The notes under the pieces: generated by a model
Told to the model about the DNA's origin: nothing
What the model saw: the letters and a program-made list of their open reading frames with translations, nothing else
The model's database searches: none
Position numbers and translations under genes: made by a program
Shown here: piece by piece, positions 1 through 6,202 of the stretch
Layout of the letters: every line of letters starts with the position of its first letter
Numbering within the stretch: position 1 is the stretch's first letter
DNA from: Brevibacillus sp.
Lineage (GTDB): Bacteria; Bacillota; Bacilli; Brevibacillales; Brevibacillaceae
DNA: 64,000 bases
Direction: 5' to 3'
Assembly (NCBI GenBank): GCA_017656235.1
Contig: JACDOF010000014.1
Coordinates: 1 to 64,000, forward strand

Positions 1-1307
1 AAATGGGCATCCGGCCAGAAGTGGCGTATGCGCAGGCTGCGAAGGAGACAGCATTTGGCAGGTTCGGCGGCGTGGTGACACGCGATCACCACAACTGGTG
101 CGGGCTGAAAACGACCAAGGGCGGTAGCAACAGCGACCCTTACGCCCACGCAAAGTTCCCGGATGATGAAGTGGGGGTACTAGCTCACCTGCAGCATCTG
201 GCCCTGTACGCGGGCGTGGAAGTCACGGGGCGTATCGTAGACCCCCGACACTTCTCGTCCATCGAAGGGACGGCCCCGACAGTGGAAGCGTTGGGCGGCA
301 AATGGGCACCGGCGGCAGACTATGGCCAGTCGATTGTTAGGGACTATCTGGCGGGGCTGCTGGAGACGAAAGTATCCACACCGCCTGTGGAAAAACCTGT
401 GGAACATTGGGCACAGCAAGACCATGACGAGCTGCGGGCTGCAGGATACCTGCTAAACGATCATAGTGGCACGTTCGATGAACCGGCTACAAAAGGAATT
501 GTATTCGCGCTGGTTAACCGGCTGAGGAAGACGATAGAGCATCAACCGCCGGCGGATACGCCGGTACCAGAAGTGCCCACTGAACCGAAACCGCCGGCGG
601 AACCTGAGCAACCGACTGATCCAGAACCACCGCCGGCGGAACCGACCAGCTACCCACCCTGCTGGCTGGCTGGCCCCGACGAGCCTTGCGTCCGAGATGA
701 CGGCTCAATCGACTGGAAAGGGCAGACACCTCCGCCGGGCGTGGAAGAACCGGAACAGCCCGCACCGCCCTGGGAAGAGACAATCGAGCGCGTAAAAAAC
801 GCCACGGTCTACGTCACTGTAAAGCATATGAACTACGGCACAGGCTGGCACATCGGGAATGGATACATTGTCACCGCCCGGCACAACGTGTACAACCAGG
901 ATGAGATCATAATCTGGATGCGCGACACGGGCACGAAGGACTACATCGCTCGGAAGGTGGCGATACACCCGGAAGTTGACCTGGCCATCTACCGCCTGGT
1001 TGGATCCGAGCCGAAAGAGGCCCTGCAACTGGCGGAAAAGCCCGTCACCAAAGGGCTGGAAGTCGGTCTGGTCGGCCACCAGAAGGGGCAGAACTGGGTA
1101 CACAAGTGTGGTCAAGTGACTCATATAACCGACAACAACCGCCCGTGGGCGTTTTCTGCCCGGTATGAACCCGACTCAGAGAAAGGAAATAGCGGTGGAC
1201 CTGTGTTCGACCAGTACGGGAAGGTGTACGGGGTGCATATCGGATATGGAAGCTGTGCCACGAATCTTCAGTTGTACCGCGACTGGATTGCCGAGCACAC
1301 CCGCTGA
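1..1307 (+). CDS. Secreted glucosaminidase (GH73-like) fused to trypsin-like serine protease, 5' truncated
   Basis: The reading frame is open at the window edge, so the true start and any signal peptide lie upstream; numbering here starts at the Met at base 3. Residues about 1-125 resemble the mannosyl-glycoprotein endo-beta-N-acetylglucosaminidase fold of phage and host wall hydrolases (AKETAFGRF carries the likely catalytic Glu). Residues about 135-178 look like an SLH-like or wall-binding stretch. A Pro/Glu-rich linker (about 180-258) follows, then a chymotrypsin-fold protease with His294 (TARHNV), Asp326 (EVDLAIY) and Ser397 (GNSGGPVF), a complete triad. The inferred role is an extracellular protein that acts on peptidoglycan and on protein. 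A terminator follows at 1341. The domain order is unusual; the domain calls are firm, the biological role is not known. Confidence 0.8.
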   Translation, partial: MGIRPEVAYAQAAKETAFGRFGGVVTRDHHNWCGLKTTKGGSNSDPYAHAKFPDDEVGVLAHLQHLALYAGVEVTGRIVDPRHFSSIEGTAPTVEALGGKWAPAADYGQSIVRDYLAGLLETKVSTPPVEKPVEHWAQQDHDELRAAGYLLNDHSGTFDEPATKGIVFALVNRLRKTIEHQPPADTPVPEVPTEPKPPAEPEQPTDPEPPPAEPTSYPPCWLAGPDEPCVRDDGSIDWKGQTPPPGVEEPEQPAPPWEETIERVKNATVYVTVKHMNYGTGWHIGNGYIVTARHNVYNQDEIIIWMRDTGTKDYIARKVAIHPEVDLAIYRLVGSEPKEALQLAEKPVTKGLEVGLVGHQKGQNWVHKCGQVTHITDNNRPWAFSARYEPDSEKGNSGGPVFDQYGKVYGVHIGYGSCATNLQLYRDWIAEHTR

Positions 1308-1340
1308 ATCTTTTCGTGTCAGCAAATCCCCAAAAAAATA

Positions 1341-1370
1341 CCCTCCGGCTTAATCGCCGGAGGGTTTTCT
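1341..1370. terminator. Bidirectional rho-independent terminator
   Basis: A perfect 9-bp stem, CCCTCCGGC (1341-1349) with GCCGGAGGG (1356-1364), has a 6-base loop. It is followed by TTTTCT on the plus side and preceded by an A-run that acts as the T-run on the minus side. It serves the rightward protease gene and the leftward gene ending at 1350, whose TAA stop lies in the hairpin loop. Confidence 0.85.
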
Positions 1371-1547
1371 GTAATCGAATACAATCCAGCCATGTTCTTC
1401 ATGGTCGGCGATGTATTCCTCTAGGTCTTCCCCTTCTTCACACCATGTGACGTGGAACATTCCTTCAAACTTTTTCGCTCTCTCTTCCTCCAATATATCC
1501 ATCGTTTTCCCGCTGGGGTCTAAGATGACCCCTACCCATTTGCTCAT
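1350..1547 (-). CDS. Small acidic hypothetical protein
   Basis: A 65-residue product begins at ATG 1547, preceded on the minus strand by AGGAGG at good spacing; a longer frame upstream lacks a ribosome site. The protein (starts MSKWVGVILD) is rich in Glu and Asp with no membrane segment or recognised motif. It is the last of three leftward genes and its start overlaps the stop of the gene at 1544-1726 by four bases, which implies translational coupling. I do not recognise the family. The neighbours suggest a mobile-element or phage-derived group. Confidence 0.6.
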   Translation of the reverse strand: MSKWVGVILDPSGKTMDILEEERAKKFEGMFHVTWCEEGEDLEEYIADHEEHGWIVFDYRKPSGD

Positions 1548-1726
1548 TTCAATTCCTCCTTCATTTTCGCAAATTGCTCCGCTTTCTGGCGGAGCCATAA
1601 CGGCCTACCCCTCTGATCTGTCGCATCTGGACGCGGAAACGCGCCCCGGTATTTCGGGTTCAGCGCCCGTTTCCCCGACTTGGCCACGTTTTGGCGAGTG
1701 GTTCCGAGGAGCTTCGCAAACTCCAC
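1544..1726 (-). CDS. Small HTH-like DNA-binding protein
   Basis: A 60-residue frame can start at GTG 1726 (VEFAKLLGTTRQNVAKSGKR). The stretch resembles the helix-turn-helix of excisionase or MerR-type small proteins, in which a residue pair like TRQ sits on the recognition helix. Residues upstream of the GTG (DLIGAVEFAKLL) continue the helix pattern, so the real start may be a rarer codon, possibly CTG near 1756, overlapping the stop of the upstream gene. It sits between two hypothetical genes in the same leftward operon. A DNA-binding role is inferred from the motif alone. Confidence 0.5.
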   Translation of the reverse strand: MEFAKLLGTTRQNVAKSGKRALNPKYRGAFPRPDATDQRGRPLWLRQKAEQFAKMKEELK

Positions 1727-1752
1727 GGCACCGATGAGATCGAGGGGCTTGG

Positions 1753-2097
1753 TCAGTTTCCCGCGACTTCCACCTCGTGGTTTTTCACTAGGAAGTCGTA
1801 GAGCCAGTTTTCTACGACCTCCAGATCCTGCGCGTGCAGGTCCTCGATCAATTGTTCAAACCGGAAGATCCCGTTCGGGTAGGTCGTGTTGAAGACGCAG
1901 TGGCGACCAATTGGTTTCAGGTCACCTTCCGCAACAGTCCGCTCATAATCGACCGTGACGGTGACGTCGGCGTCCTCGAGCTGGATGTCCAACATATAAT
2001 ATCCGTCCGGCTCCTTGATTTTTGTCGGCCCGAGCAGGTACTGTAGAGCCTCATCATGGGCAATGGTTGTTCCGTTTTGGAAAGTTTCGATTTTCAT
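1753..2097 (-). CDS. Hypothetical protein, 114 aa
   Basis: The start is set at ATG 2097 (MKIETFQNGT) because AGGAGA lies just upstream; the open frame extends further without a ribosome site. The protein is acidic, predicted mostly beta-strand in the first two thirds, with a helical C-terminal part (EQLIEDLHAQDLEVVENWLY). It has no signal peptide, membrane segment or known motif. It lies second in the leftward operon after the gene at 2117-2527. The family is not recognised. Confidence 0.6.
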   Translation of the reverse strand: MKIETFQNGTTIAHDEALQYLLGPTKIKEPDGYYMLDIQLEDADVTVTVDYERTVAEGDLKPIGRHCVFNTTYPNGIFRFEQLIEDLHAQDLEVVENWLYDFLVKNHEVEVAGN

Positions 2098-2116
2098 TTC
2101 TGATTCTCCTTTCCTC

Positions 2117-2527
2117 TTATGCGATGCGGGCCAGGACCGCATCAGCTTTGATTTCGTATACACGCCCGTTAACGACTTCTACGAAGTAGCGTCCGTTGTA
2201 CGGCTCGCACACCTCGTAGATTTTCCCCTCCTCCAGCTCGAACACTGTCCGCCCAGTGCGGCCGCTGTAGCTCCACTCCCGAGCGACCGGGTTCAGAAAC
2301 CGCCGCTCGAAGTTGTTTTTCGCGTGGCGGCCGACGATCTCGGCGATCCACTCTTTGCCGCCGCTCGGTTGGTGCCGGATGGCGAGCGTCGTGCGAGCCG
2401 GTACTTCTTTTTCAACCCCCTTCACGATCGCCCAAGCGCGCCGGAGAGCTTGGGACCAAGCGGCCATCGTGCGAACCCCTTCCTTTTTGAATATTCCCCA
2501 TGCCTTCCGCATTACCTGGGCTTTCAT
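2117..2527 (-). CDS. Phage-type hypothetical protein, 136 aa
   Basis: Of several clustered ATGs the one at 2527 (MKAQVMRKAWGIFKK) is best spaced from AGGAGG. Two successive amphipathic motifs of the form MRKAW...FSEALRRAW are typical of a small family found in Firmicutes plasmids and prophages; here they are MRKAWGIFKKEG and ALRRAWAIVKG. The C-terminal half is basic and beta-rich with the pattern VGRHAKNNFERRF. No enzymatic residues are evident. It is the first gene of the leftward operon, behind a promoter at 2578-2607. Family resemblance is from memory and the function is unknown. Confidence 0.6.
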   Translation of the reverse strand: MKAQVMRKAWGIFKKEGVRTMAAWSQALRRAWAIVKGVEKEVPARTTLAIRHQPSGGKEWIAEIVGRHAKNNFERRFLNPVAREWSYSGRTGRTVFELEEGKIYEVCEPYNGRYFVEVVNGRVYEIKADAVLARIA

Positions 2528-2577
2528 CCTCATCATCCTCCTTTTCGTTTTTCCTGTCGTCCCTTGCTGTTGTCTTC

Positions 2578-2607
2578 ATTGTACTCCGAAAAGGTTGCCT
2601 TTGTAAA
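2578..2607 (-). promoter_or_regulatory. SigA-type promoter of the leftward small-gene operon
   Basis: On the minus strand TTTACA (2607-2602) and TACAAT (2583-2578) are separated by 18 bases, about 50 bases ahead of the gene starting at 2527. It is divergent from the SOS-boxed promoter at 2657. Confidence 0.5.
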
Positions 2608-2656
2608 CCGAACAAAATACGAACATAATGTAAAGATTTTGTCGAATGCTTCCACC

Positions 2657-2701
2657 TTGATTAGCGAACACTTGTTTGGTTATACTAAGAACAAACGTTC
2701 T
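2657..2701 (+). promoter_or_regulatory. SigA promoter with two LexA (SOS) boxes
   Basis: TTGATT (2657-2662), an 18-base spacer and TATACT (2681-2686) form a promoter. Two Bacillus-type LexA boxes overlap it: CGAACACTTGTTTG at 2665-2678, inside the spacer, and AGAACAAACGTTCT at 2688-2701, at the start site, which has the exact GAAC-N4-GTTC core. This placement fits repression by LexA and DNA-damage induction of the YolD pair downstream. Confidence 0.8.
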
Positions 2702-2717
2702 GATCTGAGGTGACACC

Positions 2718-2888
2718 ATGAAAACCATGCTTGTGCCATTATATGGGGAACTGCGCCCTGTTCCTATTCTGACGGAAGAACATCTTCGCGTTTTGGGGCA
2801 GTTGCAAAAGGGTAAGATACCAGAAGAACATAGCGTCATCGAAGAACTTGCAGCCGCGGGACTGGTGAACTATGGCGCGAAAAATTGA
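2718..2888 (+). CDS. Small protein upstream of and overlapping yolD-like gene, 56 aa
   Basis: The frame runs ATG 2718 to TGA 2888 (MKTMLVPLYGELRP...), with GAGGTG as ribosome site. It overlaps the yolD-like start at 2872 by 17 bases, so the two are likely coupled. No motif is recognised; the second half is helical (HSVIEELAAAGLV). Being the first gene behind two LexA boxes, it should be part of the SOS response. Short proteins often precede yolD genes, but I cannot assign a family. Confidence 0.6.
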   Translation: MKTMLVPLYGELRPVPILTEEHLRVLGQLQKGKIPEEHSVIEELAAAGLVNYGAKN

Positions 2889-3216
2889 CGATGTGTTTGG
2901 TGCAAGTCGGTGGATGCTGCCGGAGCATGCGGCTGCCCTGATCGACTATGAGTTTGAAAAGACGCTCGTCCGACAGCCGACCATCGAAGAAGACGAGCTG
3001 ACCGAATTCAACCGCCTCATCTACGATTCAGTGCATCGGGACTACGCCGTCACCGTGCAGTATTGGGTGCCGATCCGGCGCAACCTGGGCGAGATTCGGA
3101 CGGTTTGGGGCTGGGTGAAGAAAATCGACGCCACGCACAAGCAGATCAAGGTTGTGAACGATGAGGACGTGGAATGGATCGACGTGAATAGGATTGTGGG
3201 TGTGTGGAAAGGCTGA
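2872..3216 (+). CDS. YolD-like family protein (SOS-associated)
   Basis: The 114-residue protein begins MARKIDDVFGASRWMLPEH and has the YolD-like pattern: a helical N-terminal half followed by a small SH3-like beta domain (VTVQYW, GEIRTVWGWVKKID, WIDVNRIVGV). Members usually sit beside UvrX-type Y-family polymerases in Bacillales and their mobile elements. No polymerase gene follows here, so it is an orphan. Its promoter carries two LexA boxes. The biochemical role of the family is not established. Confidence 0.8.
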   Translation: MARKIDDVFGASRWMLPEHAAALIDYEFEKTLVRQPTIEEDELTEFNRLIYDSVHRDYAVTVQYWVPIRRNLGEIRTVWGWVKKIDATHKQIKVVNDEDVEWIDVNRIVGVWKG

Positions 3217-3269
3217 ATGAAACCGCCTCCCTTACCCTCGCTGTTGCGGGGTATATTTTTGTGTATCCT

Positions 3270-3297
3270 TTGGCAATTTCTGAGTTGGTGGTATAAT
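3270..3297 (+). promoter_or_regulatory. SigA promoter of the DUF3800 gene
   Basis: TTGGCA (3270-3275), 16-base spacer, TATAAT (3292-3297). A run of G including GAGGGGGGG at 3312-3320 serves as the ribosome site for the GTG at 3328. Confidence 0.65.
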
Positions 3298-3327
3298 GTT
3301 GGGGGATATTTGAGGGGGGGCAGATCG

Positions 3328-4138
3328 GTGGAATACTTTATCTATTGTGACGAGTCTGAGCAGAAAGGTCATTTATTCAGCAAATTTTACGGCGGCGCAC
3401 TAGTTCGCAGTATACATATTAGTGAGGTAATACAGACATTAGAAGCGTGCAAAAAAAAATGGTTTAACTGGTGAGGTTAAGTGGACAAAAGTAACTCATC
3501 ATTATTTAGATAAATACATTAGCTTAATAGATACATTCTTTGACCTAATTAAGCAAGACAAAGTGAAGATGAGAGTCATGTTTCAACAGAATTTATTTGC
3601 GGAACCAAGGTTGAAGGGACTAACTAAACAACAAAGGGATGATTCGTTCTTTTTGTTATACTATCAATTTTTTAAACATGCTTTTGGTTTGCAATACTCT
3701 AATGAAACTGATCGCCCGGTTTATGTAAGGATATTTTTTGATCAGTTTCCAGACACTAAGGAGAAAGTGTCGATATTTAAAGACTATATCCATCGGCTAC
3801 AATATCAAACGGCATTCTTGCAGGCAAAATTAAAGATAAGGAAAGAGGACATTGTTGAAGTTACCTCTCATGATCATGTTGTCCTTCAATGCGCAGATAT
3901 AGTAACGGGTGCAATGTATTTTAGACTAAACAACCTCCACAGAGCCAAAACTGAAGGGCAAAGGGTACGCGGTAAACGCACACGAGCTAAAGAACAACTA
4001 TATAATCATATAAATGCAAGAATCCGAGATATTTACCCTCACTTTAATATCGGTATATCTACAGGGTTTAAAGGGGATGCGAGAAACAAATGGAACCATC
4101 CCTATAGACATTGGAGATTTATGCCTAATGAGACGTAA
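3328..4138 (+). pseudogene. DUF3800 protein, frameshifted at an A9 run
   Basis: The first part starts at GTG 3328 (VEYFIYCDESEQKGHLF), the DUF3800 signature with the conserved acidic YxDES, and ends at TGA 3472-3474. The second part continues in the next frame to 4138 and contains the rest of the domain (GEVKWTK, RIFFDQFPD, LQCADIVTGAMYF, KGDARN). The two frames join exactly at the A9 run at 3451-3459: with eight A the reading becomes CKKNGLTGEVKW, as expected for the family. DUF3800 has a predicted RNase H-like fold and is common on mobile elements. Base use is AT-richer than the neighbours. It may be a broken gene, a sequencing slip or a slippage site. A promoter-stem-terminator unit follows. 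Confidence 0.75.
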
Positions 4139-4147
4139 AGAAAAGTA

Positions 4148-4176
4148 TTGTATTATTCTGTAATCTTTGTTATCAT
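4148..4176 (+). promoter_or_regulatory. Promoter of candidate small RNA
   Basis: TTGTAT (4148-4153), 17-base spacer, TATCAT (4171-4176), ten bases after the DUF3800 stop. No translated frame with a ribosome site follows before the terminator at 4269-4294. Confidence 0.55.
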
Positions 4177-4182
4177 GATGAC

Positions 4183-4294
4183 TAAGAAGAAGCTCTGTCG
4201 AACCGAAGGCTTGCGTGCCTACGTGGGCTACTTAGTAGGGGAGATGGAGCTCACTACATGAACGGTTGCTCTCGATTAATACGAGAGTTTTTTT
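4183..4294 (+). ncRNA. Candidate structured small RNA downstream of DUF3800
   Basis: About 110 bases lie between a promoter and an intrinsic terminator. A 9-bp closing stem (with two G-U pairs) joins 4191-4199 to 4243-4251. Inside it are two small hairpins, AGGC/GCCT (4207-4210 with 4217-4220) and CTAC/GTAG (4228-4231 with 4235-4238), giving a three-way-junction shape; a competing helix CCTAC/GTAGG is possible. The terminator is CTCTCG/CGAGAG (4269-4287) followed by seven T. Structured RNAs that neighbour DUF3800 genes have been reported under DUF3800 motif names (from memory). Whether this is one of them is untested. Confidence 0.55.
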
Positions 4295-4335
4295 ATCCCC
4301 AAAACCCCCCATCCTTCGCCAAAGGATTCGACAAG

Positions 4336-4359
4336 CCCCCTGCAGAAAGAGGCAGGGGG
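4336..4359 (+). promoter_or_regulatory. Hairpin burying the ribosome site of the Xre gene
   Basis: CCCCCTGC (4336-4343) pairs perfectly with GCAGGGGG (4352-4359) over an 8-base loop. The 3' arm is the only Shine-Dalgarno-like sequence for the ATG at 4367, so the fold would block translation unless opened. Confidence 0.5.
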
Positions 4360-4366
4360 TGATTTT

Positions 4367-4573
4367 ATGGCCGTCAAATGTAGGATCGGTGACATGATCG
4401 ACCAACGGGGATTGAAGAAAAAGTTTGTAGCCGAGCAGCTGGGCCTTAACGAGTCGTACTTTTCCCGAATCGCCAGCGGCAAGGTGGTTCCGAATATCGA
4501 GACATTACACAGGATCGCGCGTTTTTTCGGCTGCTACATAGATGACTTGTACGAATTCGACTGTACTGAGTAG
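4367..4573 (+). CDS. Xre-family transcriptional regulator (HTH), 68 aa
   Basis: A single-domain Cro/C1-type helix-turn-helix: residues 6-60 carry KKKFVAEQLGLNESYFSRIASGKVVPNIETLHRIARFF, here seen as AEQLGLNESYFSRIASGK and PNIETLHRIARFF, the usual helices 2-4. The size fits phage and plasmid repressors that are just the DNA-binding domain. TGTAC pentamers lie at 4548, 4562, 4584 and 4623, at its 3' end and ahead of the next genes, and could be its operators. Its ribosome site lies in a strong hairpin. The targets are inferred only from proximity. Confidence 0.85.
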   Translation: MAVKCRIGDMIDQRGLKKKFVAEQLGLNESYFSRIASGKVVPNIETLHRIARFFGCYIDDLYEFDCTE

Positions 4574-4651
4574 AAAATTTTTCTGTACTGGACAGGCAAA
4601 TATTCTTTACTGGCGCATACACTGTACCAAACGGATGAGGAGGTATGGTGT

Positions 4652-4786
4652 ATGAAAGAACTGAAACTCTGGCTCAGGCTTCGGGTGCTGAACGAAATCC
4701 TGGCTCTGTGCCTCACGGCTGCCACAATCGGACTGGTGATCTGGTTCCTGTTCTGCTATTTGCCGGGTTGGACGGTGATGTTCTGA
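4652..4786 (+). CDS. Single-span membrane peptide, 44 aa
   Basis: ATG 4652 is 8 bases after GAGGAGG; an ATG at 4645 is too close to it. The product (MKELKLWLRLRVLNEILAL...) has a basic N-terminus and one hydrophobic helix (about residues 18-38, ATIGLVIWFLFCYL). The stop TGA overlaps the next start as TGATG, implying coupled translation. The size and composition fit a small phage or toxin-like membrane peptide, but no family is recognised. Confidence 0.5.
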   Translation: MKELKLWLRLRVLNEILALCLTAATIGLVIWFLFCYLPGWTVMF

Positions 4787-5007
4787 TGTGGATAGTCGAT
4801 CAGCGCATATGCGAGCTATGGACGATCAACAAGCGACGGCCACTGACTGATGACGAAATGACGGAATTCATCCATTGTATGGACGCTCACCTAAAACGGG
4901 CTTGGGAGATTGCGAAGTTGAAGAATCTGTCGCTTGTCGCCAGCATGACCAATGATGTGAAGTGGCAGCATGAACTGTGTGCGAAGTTGGAGCGGCTGAT
5001 GGGATGA
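4786..5007 (+). CDS. Small helical hypothetical protein, 73 aa
   Basis: The start is ATG 4786, overlapping the preceding stop; the longer open frame from 4645 would read through the upstream gene in another frame and is not preferred. The protein (MWIVDQRICELWTINKRRPLTDDEMTEF) is helical with conserved-looking WxINKRRPLT and a C-terminal KLERL. It resembles small proteins found in Bacillus prophages and integrative elements. The function is unknown. A terminator follows at 5010. Confidence 0.6.
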   Translation: MWIVDQRICELWTINKRRPLTDDEMTEFIHCMDAHLKRAWEIAKLKNLSLVASMTNDVKWQHELCAKLERLMG

Positions 5008-5009
5008 TG

Positions 5010-5037
5010 AAAGCCCTTCTCGCTTGAGAGGGGCTTT
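5010..5037 (+). terminator. Terminator of the small Xre-linked operon
   Basis: A 12-bp stem, AAAGCCCTTCTC (5010-5021) with GAGAGGGGCTTT (5026-5037), has a GCTT loop. It overlaps the stop region of the preceding gene. The T-run is short. Confidence 0.7.
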
Positions 5038-5101
5038 ACGCATAGTCCAGATGTGTTAAACTATATCAAGTTGATGTGATAATAATAATGAGGTGACATA
5101 C

Positions 5102-6202
5102 ATGGGTTTCTCTACAGGGATTGTAGGCCTGCCTAACGTCGGCAAGTCAACACTGTTTAACGCGATTACGCAGGCTGGGGCGGAGTCGGCCAACTATCCG
5201 TTTTGTACCATTGATCCCAATGTTGGCATTGTCGAAGTTCCCGATCCGCGTCTGAACAAGCTGGCGGAAATCGTGGTTCCCAATAAAATCGTACCTACGG
5301 CATTTGAGTTTGTTGACATCGCCGGTCTCGTAAAGGGGGCCAGCAAAGGTGAAGGACTGGGCAACCAGTTTTTGTCCCACATTCGGGAAGTAGATGCGAT
5401 CGCACACGTCGTGCGCTGTTTTGAAGATGAGAACATCACTCACGTGGCAGGGAAAGTAGACCCTTTAAGCGACATCGAGACGATCATGCTGGAGTTGATC
5501 TTTGCCGACCTGGAGTCTGTTGAGCGCCGCATCGAGCGGATCGGCCGCAAAGTGAAAGCGGGCGACAAGGAAGCCAAACAGGAGCTGGATGTCCTGGAGA
5601 AGCTGAAGGCGGCATTTGAGCAGGGACAGACAGCGCGCAGCGTTACCCTTGACGAGGAGGAGGCAAAGCTGGTGCGCGACCTGCACCTGCTGACGATCAA
5701 GCCAATGCTCTACGTCTGCAACGTGGCCGAAGACGGTGTACTGACGGCTGACGACAACCCGCACGTGCAGGCAGTGCGTCGGCACGCAGCCCAAGAAGGG
5801 GCGGAAGTTGTCGTTGTCAGCGCCAAGGTGGAAGCGGAAATCGCCGAGTTGGAGGGCGAGGACAAGCAGATGTTTTTGGAAGAGCTGGGACTGAAGGAAT
5901 CCGGTTTGGATCGCTTGATACGAGCAGCCTACCGACTGCTTGGACTGATAACCTATTTCACGGCTGGCGTACAGGAGGTGCGGGCCTGGACAATCCGCAG
6001 CGGGACAAAAGCGCCTCAGGCTGCCGGTGTCATTCACAGCGACTTTGAGCGTGGCTTCATTCGCGCCGAGGTGGTGGCGTACGACGATCTGATTGAGGCC
6101 GGGTCGGTCAGTGCAGCTCGGGAAAAAGGAAAGTACCGGTTGGAAGGAAAAGATTACGTGGTGCAAGACGGAGATGTCATGCATTTCCGGTTTAATGTGT
6201 AA
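5102..6202 (+). CDS. ychF: YchF/OLA1 family redox-regulated GTPase/ATPase
   Basis: The 366-residue protein matches the usual family length when started at ATG 5102 behind GAGGTGA; the GTG at 5093 is an in-frame extension. The G domain spans about 1-275: G1 GLPNVGKST near residue 8, G3 DIAGLVKGA and a NxxE-type G4 (NVAEDG), the change that gives YchF its ATP preference. An inserted coiled coil (about 125-180) and a C-terminal TGS domain (about 280-363) complete the family pattern. It is a cytosolic ribosome-associated P-loop protein. It precedes the rpsF operon, as in other Bacillales. Confidence 0.97.

Follow-up and report, generated by a model that had tools for sequence, protein, structure and literature searches.

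We report that an element at 4189-4253 on the forward strand of the window (the whole stretch of Brevibacillus sp. DNA analyzed here, 64,000 nucleotides in length) is a further member of a known RNA family, the DUF3800-VIII RNA (RF03075), whose homologues adjoin genes for a DUF3800 protein in diverse bacteria and also occur alone in phages. On the basis of sequence comparisons and a modelled protein structure, we favor, with somewhat less than even confidence, the proposal that the RNA and the protein constitute an RNA-controlled nuclease defence module, and that the solitary phage RNAs might be decoys keeping the nuclease silent. The relevant features of the window are as follows:

3331..3474, + strand: N-terminal part of DUF3800 (GTG start at 3331 by homology; the frame ends at 3474)
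3449..3457, + strand: run of nine A (A9), the site of the frame break; the two halves match in different frames
3455..4138, + strand: C-terminal part of DUF3800, in a second frame (PF12686, E 2.5e-7)
4148..4176, + strand: possible RNA promoter, recognized by eye (weak -35 TTGTAT, 17-base spacer, TGT-TATCAT -10)
4189..4253, + strand: DUF3800-VIII RNA hairpin (RF03075, 53.7 bits; covariation in homologues)
4268..4294, + strand: intrinsic terminator with T7 (stem 4268-4288 plus the T run; from the scan and the sequence)

A covariance model search of the whole window with all 4227 Rfam families returned RF03075 as the only match at the gathering level (53.7 bits against a gathering score of 40.2; E 3.3e-7). 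The RNA starts 51 bases downstream of the stop codon of the gene with the PF12686 domain, and the match bears out both the contention of the first-pass annotation that a structured non-coding unit lies directly 3' of a DUF3800 gene and its suggestion that a DUF3800 RNA family of Rfam might account for it. In the fold of 4148-4300 the predicted 9-bp closing stem is present (4191-4199 paired with 4243-4251). In place of the two hairpins thought to lie inside this stem, there is one stacked hairpin with internal loops, comprising the long closing stem, an asymmetric internal loop (GAA versus ..GUAG), and, innermost, a hairpin of 9 bp; what had been read as the second hairpin is the terminator. 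The GAA (4205-4207) opposite AGUA/UGUA (4236-4239) appears to resemble a bulged-G (sarcin-ricin type) module. The fold energy of the window copy (z of -0.43 for the 153 nt unit and -1.46 for the 65-nt core) is not unusually stable and is weak evidence, so that support for the structure comes from homology and covariation. The terminator scan recovered the proposed 7-T terminator as an intrinsic terminator, with its T7 at 4288-4294. The proposed promoter stands in part: the match to the consensus is weak (3/6 for TTGTAT at 4148-4153 and 5/6 for TATCAT at 4171-4176, with a TGT before the -10), and it falls below the threshold of the consensus scan, which lists a different weak site instead (ATGAGA/TATTAT, 4128-4156). 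Nevertheless, the -10 recognized by eye ends 12 bases before the RNA, and the same spacing occurs in homologues.

A survey in Nucleic Acids Research in 2017 is said to have described the DUF3800 RNAs. RF03075 is mentioned in no paper of the literature searched, which also yielded no published function for the DUF3800-VIII RNA and, in the portions of the sources available, no assigned function for the DUF3800 RNA classes.

The DUF3800 gene of the window is frame-broken. Its segment 3331-3459 matches the DUF3800-VIII protein model and aligns to residues 1-42 of a relative from Alicyclobacillus, to which the C-terminal part is 67% identical. The break at the A9 may be real, may be an assembly error, or may be bypassed by slippage. 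Intact relatives of the gene exist elsewhere; a genome-wide search with the protein model found no second copy of this DUF3800 type in this genome, which holds one copy of the RNA, and the intact protein partner presumed in the earlier reading was thus not recovered here. As the nuclease gene is broken, the window RNA is probably left without an active partner, and this counts against our preferred model of an RNA-controlled nuclease. We entertain as a real, if tentative, possibility that the window copy is a decayed remnant of no present function, with a broken gene and a drifting hairpin. While the frame break and the modest fold energy speak for such decay, the hairpin has retained the conserved core, its score is well clear of the gathering cut-off, and the proposed decay concerns the window copy alone and not the family.

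Positions 1-5116 of the window have no match in the ~11.5 kb upstream of ychF in two genomes of the same genus. In these congeners an MscS-like gene (named from its sequence) lies upstream of ychF, whereas here it is found near the end of another contig. Given the congeners without the cassette and the displaced MscS-like gene, we conclude that the cassette lies in an insertion beside ychF. One of the window genes on its left side encodes an endolysin joined to a trypsin-like domain, and such a neighbor, judged by its sequence, fits a prophage or prophage remnant. The corresponding single ORF (3-1307) combines a glucosaminidase-type endolysin region with a trypsin-like protease domain, which is an unusual lysin layout. 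In a sample of 398 genomes that was drawn from the class and includes the present one, 9 contain the RNA at E 0.001 or better and 8 of these 9 exceed the cut-off, indicating a sporadic distribution. The idea that the pair is a protein-RNA system on a mobile element hence gains from the phage-like setting, namely the endolysin and the absence of the cassette from two congeners, but suffers from the broken partner gene.

Protein searches recovered 20 loci on genome contigs, spanning Bacillota, Bacteroidota, cyanobacteria, and proteobacteria (as labelled in the records), and in all 20 the RNA lies at the 3' end of DUF3800. Eighteen reach the RF03075 gathering score; in the other two, L028 and L033, the internal loops are longer, and a model constructed in this analysis gives them 48.0 and 47.1 bits, respectively. 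There is some redundancy, in that L034 has the same DNA as L035, and the contig of L031 also carries L036, a remnant. On viral contigs, five of the six DUF3800 places found by protein have the RNA, and at the sixth the contig stops within it. The RNA is on the same strand as the gene in 6 of 23 measured loci and on the opposite strand in 17, and in these 23 loci it is always at most 77 bases from the stop codon or overlaps it. The expectation that the stem recurs at other DUF3800 loci is thus confirmed, as an RNA with conserved pairing adjoins the homologues; no intact DUF3800-VIII without the RNA was encountered among the loci examined, except L012, where the contig ends inside the RNA. A copy of the RNA in a Riemerella phage scores 34.8 bits, below the cut-off, and a Citrobacter plasmid protein (28% identical) has no RNA match. 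On the small, mobilizable Citrobacter werkmanii plasmid NZ_CP084292.1 (L039), a distant DUF3800 gene adjoins an annotated PemK/MazF toxin gene and is without an RF03075-type RNA. Shigella phage Henu10 (OQ791282.1) carries the same DUF3800 gene, at the same identity, as 13 Riemerella phages, and since the gene is shared with these its host label looks doubtful.

At several loci (the window, L005, L007, L014/L031, L016/L036, L024, and L034/L035) DUF3800 is broken or deleted and the RNA is kept. As a sequence pattern this fits a harmful protein that would be held by the RNA; however, the gene is about twelve times longer than the RNA, and more frequent breakage is expected from length alone, which counts against our preferred model. 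Geomicrobium sp. JCM 19039 has direct copies, L031 and L036, ~41 kb apart, one of which has the DUF3800 coding part deleted and the RNA kept. We considered these as prophage att sites and dropped this idea, as L036 is the same locus minus most of the DUF3800 coding part, with the RNA kept; it reads as a probable decayed duplicate of the L031 locus.

In the 23 linked RNAs 87.8% of the cells pair, against 33-46% for slid partners, and 17 of the 25 pairs are changed on both sides; their covariation score is reached by no shuffle. The excess of G-U over A-C cells (105 versus 11) indicates the transcribed strand. Of 28 linked loci, 18 have a promoter (at least 9 of 12) at a distance of 4-32 nt upstream of the RNA, where shuffles lead one to expect 3.2, and 20 have a T-run downstream of the RNA; these 28 include the window, where the listed site differs from the promoter recognized by eye, and L024, where the RNA start is blurred by duplication. 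The -10 box of most linked loci ends 4-14 nt ahead of the hairpin, which is followed by the T-run. With its own promoter and a T-run directly after the hairpin, the transcript is likely to be little more than the hairpin itself, and as this leaves little or no room for a guide beside it in most linked loci, we consider a guide RNA unlikely. Likewise, a cis-regulatory element or 3' UTR of DUF3800 is largely rejected by the opposite orientation in 17 of 23 loci and the separate promoter in most linked loci; the occurrence of the RNA on either strand of the gene points to action in trans rather than to a riboswitch or 3' UTR. By these sequence criteria, we consider it most likely that the DUF3800-VIII RNA stands on its own and functions in trans as an sRNA.

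An AlphaFold2 model of the Alicyclobacillus relative (mean pLDDT 86.2) has as its best structural match RNase HII, 1eke (Foldseek E 9e-5; Z 10.6 over 172 residues, rmsd 3.4), which ranks above the RNase HI and Argonaute-type rows. The model thus supports a predicted RNase HII-like fold for DUF3800-VIII, in agreement with the RNase H-like fold attributed to DUF3800 by the first-pass annotation. The catalytic acidic residues of RNase HII are a D-E pair, located on the first strand, plus two more Asp. Among the relatives of the DUF3800-VIII protein, D8, E9, E50, D139, and D191 are invariant or nearly so, and the D-E pair on the predicted first strand together with two later aspartates appears to resemble this catalytic set. 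A sequence search of solved structures gave no significant match (best E 0.57, to a ribosomal protein), NCBIfam has no family for the protein, and in PHROGs it matches only a family of unknown function. In the parts available of the respective reports, one account links DUF3800 to Cas12a2 loci and assigns it an RNase H fold that shows a catalytic rearrangement (PMC10910872), and another places it in VI-F and V-A2 loci as an accessory nuclease (PMC12669027).

Selected neighbors of 11 loci were examined for contextual associations. In Nostoc the RNA-gene pair is flanked by HsdS and HsdR within a type I restriction operon, and in a Pseudohongiella MAG it comes after HsdS-HsdR; these type I restriction settings, inside or after the genes, are loci L028 and L029. 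On the viral contig L013 an AAA_21 ATPase and a PtuB-like HNH protein (below the curated cut-off) constitute a Septu-like pair beside it. Moreover, the three DUF3800-VIII proteins tested with PADLOC score 51.6 to 77 bits against its candidate family PDC-M04A. Other neighbors are of ordinary or phage type, such as GH25 lysins, a large serine recombinase, an LXG toxin, aldehyde dehydrogenase, and mannosyltransferase-type proteins. The defence setting is hence recurrent but not universal, and the many linked copies with ordinary, non-defence neighbors count against the proposed module.

DNA similarity and pattern scans of viral contigs uncovered solitary copies of the RNA. Among 27 viral records, 26 have the RNA (24 over the cut-off) and seven have DUF3800; 20 of the 27, including SPbeta-like phages and Brevibacillus phage Jimmer2, have the RNA without the gene, a proportion that is not a frequency in nature because the records were chosen for having the gene or the RNA. 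Five of the 20 RNA-only records are described as complete phage genomes (Goe14, phi3T, SPbetaL2, BUCT082, and Jimmer2), and the IMG/VR records among the 27 may be fragments. A more sensitive protein model found DUF3800 in none of these 20 records and in both positive controls. The SPbetaL2 RNA scores 32.5 bits, below the cut-off, and the Goe14 record already annotates its copy as DUF3800-VIII. The RNAs of Goe11 and Goe14 are identical over 57 of 57 bases to a gene-linked RNA of Bacillus mojavensis, and this match stays inside the hairpin. Compared with their closest linked RNA, 19 of the 20 solitary viral RNAs are 82-92% identical (L064 is 71% identical), whereas the 80-base flanks reach 39-55% against the same linked loci, near background, so that the similarity is mainly that of the RNA. 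Between phage types the RNAs are 77-89% identical and most flanks 45-58%, with some pairs sharing one flank at 68-88%.

The solitary phage RNAs come from only a few phage lineages, and their own alignment, the misaligned L064 included, shows no covariation beyond shuffles. Pairing in their closing stem is weakened, to 63.6% of the cells, and two copies fold poorly. Given these features, some of them may be decaying. When viral and chromosomal solitary copies are pooled, a promoter of the linked type is present at 1 of the 20 that are distinct, against 0.8 expected; its absence is compatible with expression from phage operons. The lack of covariation, the weakened stem, the poor folds, and the missing promoter speak against a decoy role. 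Solitary copies also occur in chromosomes (L006 and L008 above the cut-off, L009 and L010 below); G240, the genome holding L008, has no PF12686 match at all. Such chromosomal copies count against our proposal.

We infer from these patterns a two-part module of a nuclease with a predicted RNase HII-like fold (DUF3800-VIII) and a separately transcribed hairpin sRNA of about 66-110 nt that would act on it in trans. The nuclease would bind the hairpin via the conserved GAA/GUAG internal loop, and the bound hairpin would keep this potentially toxic enzyme inactive until a phage upsets the balance. The system would thereby resemble an RNA antitoxin-based defence module carried by prophages and restriction islands, and the RNA-only phages would use their RNA as a decoy to silence the nuclease. 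More specifically, the solitary RNAs of the SPbeta-like and Jimmer-like phages could be counter-defence elements that keep the putative protein-binding core without the closing stem or promoter; for the module and this counter-defence together, sequence patterns make a possible but doubtful case.

It is unlikely, in our assessment, that the RNA is instead an obligatory cofactor activating or positioning the nuclease in an effector RNP, with the solitary phage copies as non-productive competitors like solitary CRISPR repeats. The tight linkage and the conserved core are as expected for a cofactor, and the weakened closing stem of the phage copies would suit a binder unable to activate. However, the close-set -10 and T-run of most linked loci leave little space for a guide, and broken genes with a kept RNA occur, while an intact DUF3800-VIII gene without the RNA was not seen. 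Still less probable is an independent phage sRNA, with a host or phage target, that travels with DUF3800 only as a fellow prophage accessory: the RNA does stand alone in 20 of the 27 viral records, and the SPbeta-like phages keep it at one place near yonN/yonO, but in all 20 genome loci it abuts the gene, which is too tight an association for two independent accessories. Regulation of DUF3800 expression by the RNA, as antisense or terminator where convergent and as a 3' UTR element where tandem, appears highly improbable, for although the RNA abuts or overlaps the gene end in the 17 opposite-strand loci, the same sequence and structure occur on both strands and also without the gene, and what is conserved is the internal loop rather than any complementarity to the gene.

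The proposed RNA-controlled nuclease module invites comparison with several known systems. The window copy shares with the RF03075 DUF3800-VIII RNA its sequence, structure, and gene linkage, and differs only in the frame-broken linked gene. In type III systems the antitoxin RNA consists of tandem repeats before the toxin gene. No tandem repeats were found around the window RNA, which is single-copy and downstream, so that this layout is absent; a single downstream copy, unlike the type III repeats, counts against a model resembling an RNA antitoxin. As far as the portions available of the sources go, the type III toxin-antitoxin ToxIN (PMC5772629, PMC5086642) shares with our system a nuclease, a small structured RNA, and a mobile or phage-defence setting; here, in contrast, there is an RNase HII-like fold and a single RNA that has its own promoter and follows the gene on either strand, and antitoxin activity is putative. 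The same limits of source apply to the mimicry of ToxI by a phage RNA (PMC3475682), which likewise involves a phage-borne RNA similar to the RNA component of a protein-RNA pair; that mimicry was proven by escape mutants, whereas the decoy role here is proposed from solitary copies. The RNA-based anti-CRISPRs, or Racrs, in the part of the report available (PMC10651486), are also solitary defence-linked RNAs in viral genomes without effector genes, but there is no CRISPR here, and inhibition is putative. The anticodon nuclease PrrC, as covered in the accessible part of its description (PMC2610378), is similarly a nuclease gene linked to hsd genes, as at L028 and L029; the DUF3800-VIII system differs in its fold, its accompanying RNA, and the location of most copies outside hsd operons. 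Finally, the DUF3800 proteins of Cas12a2 and other class 2 CRISPR loci share the RNase H fold and defence setting but are, in the sections available, CRISPR accessories, some fused to TPR domains (PMC10910872, PMC12669027), whereas here we have a stand-alone pair.

Should the pair indeed prove to be a defence module whose RNA is also carried alone by phages, the RNA family would be accounted for, a DUF3800 subfamily would gain a role, and RNA decoys acting on a defence other than CRISPR would extend beyond the ToxI mimic. In that case the other DUF3800 RNA classes would represent the same arms race in parallel forms. We consider the counter-defence idea, itself reached by inference, to be the valuable part. 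SPbeta-group phages such as phi3T carry the RNA, which makes Bacillus subtilis a ready test host. The literature search for sRNAs of the SPbeta yon region found only unrelated papers, and among the matches listed for papers naming DUF3800 none is on SPbeta by title.

The phage loci show additional structured elements beside the solitary RNA. In Goe14 an annotated 'skipping-rope' RNA (L040:2691-2800) lies ~1.2 kb before it, beside an HU gene. In L041, L043, L045, and L048-L055 a short hairpin (CGCUGA..UCAGCG or GGCU..AGCC around ACCCGUAA) is found directly 5' of the solitary RNA; by eye, its stem is changed on both sides between the two groups of SPbeta-like phages that have this extra hairpin.
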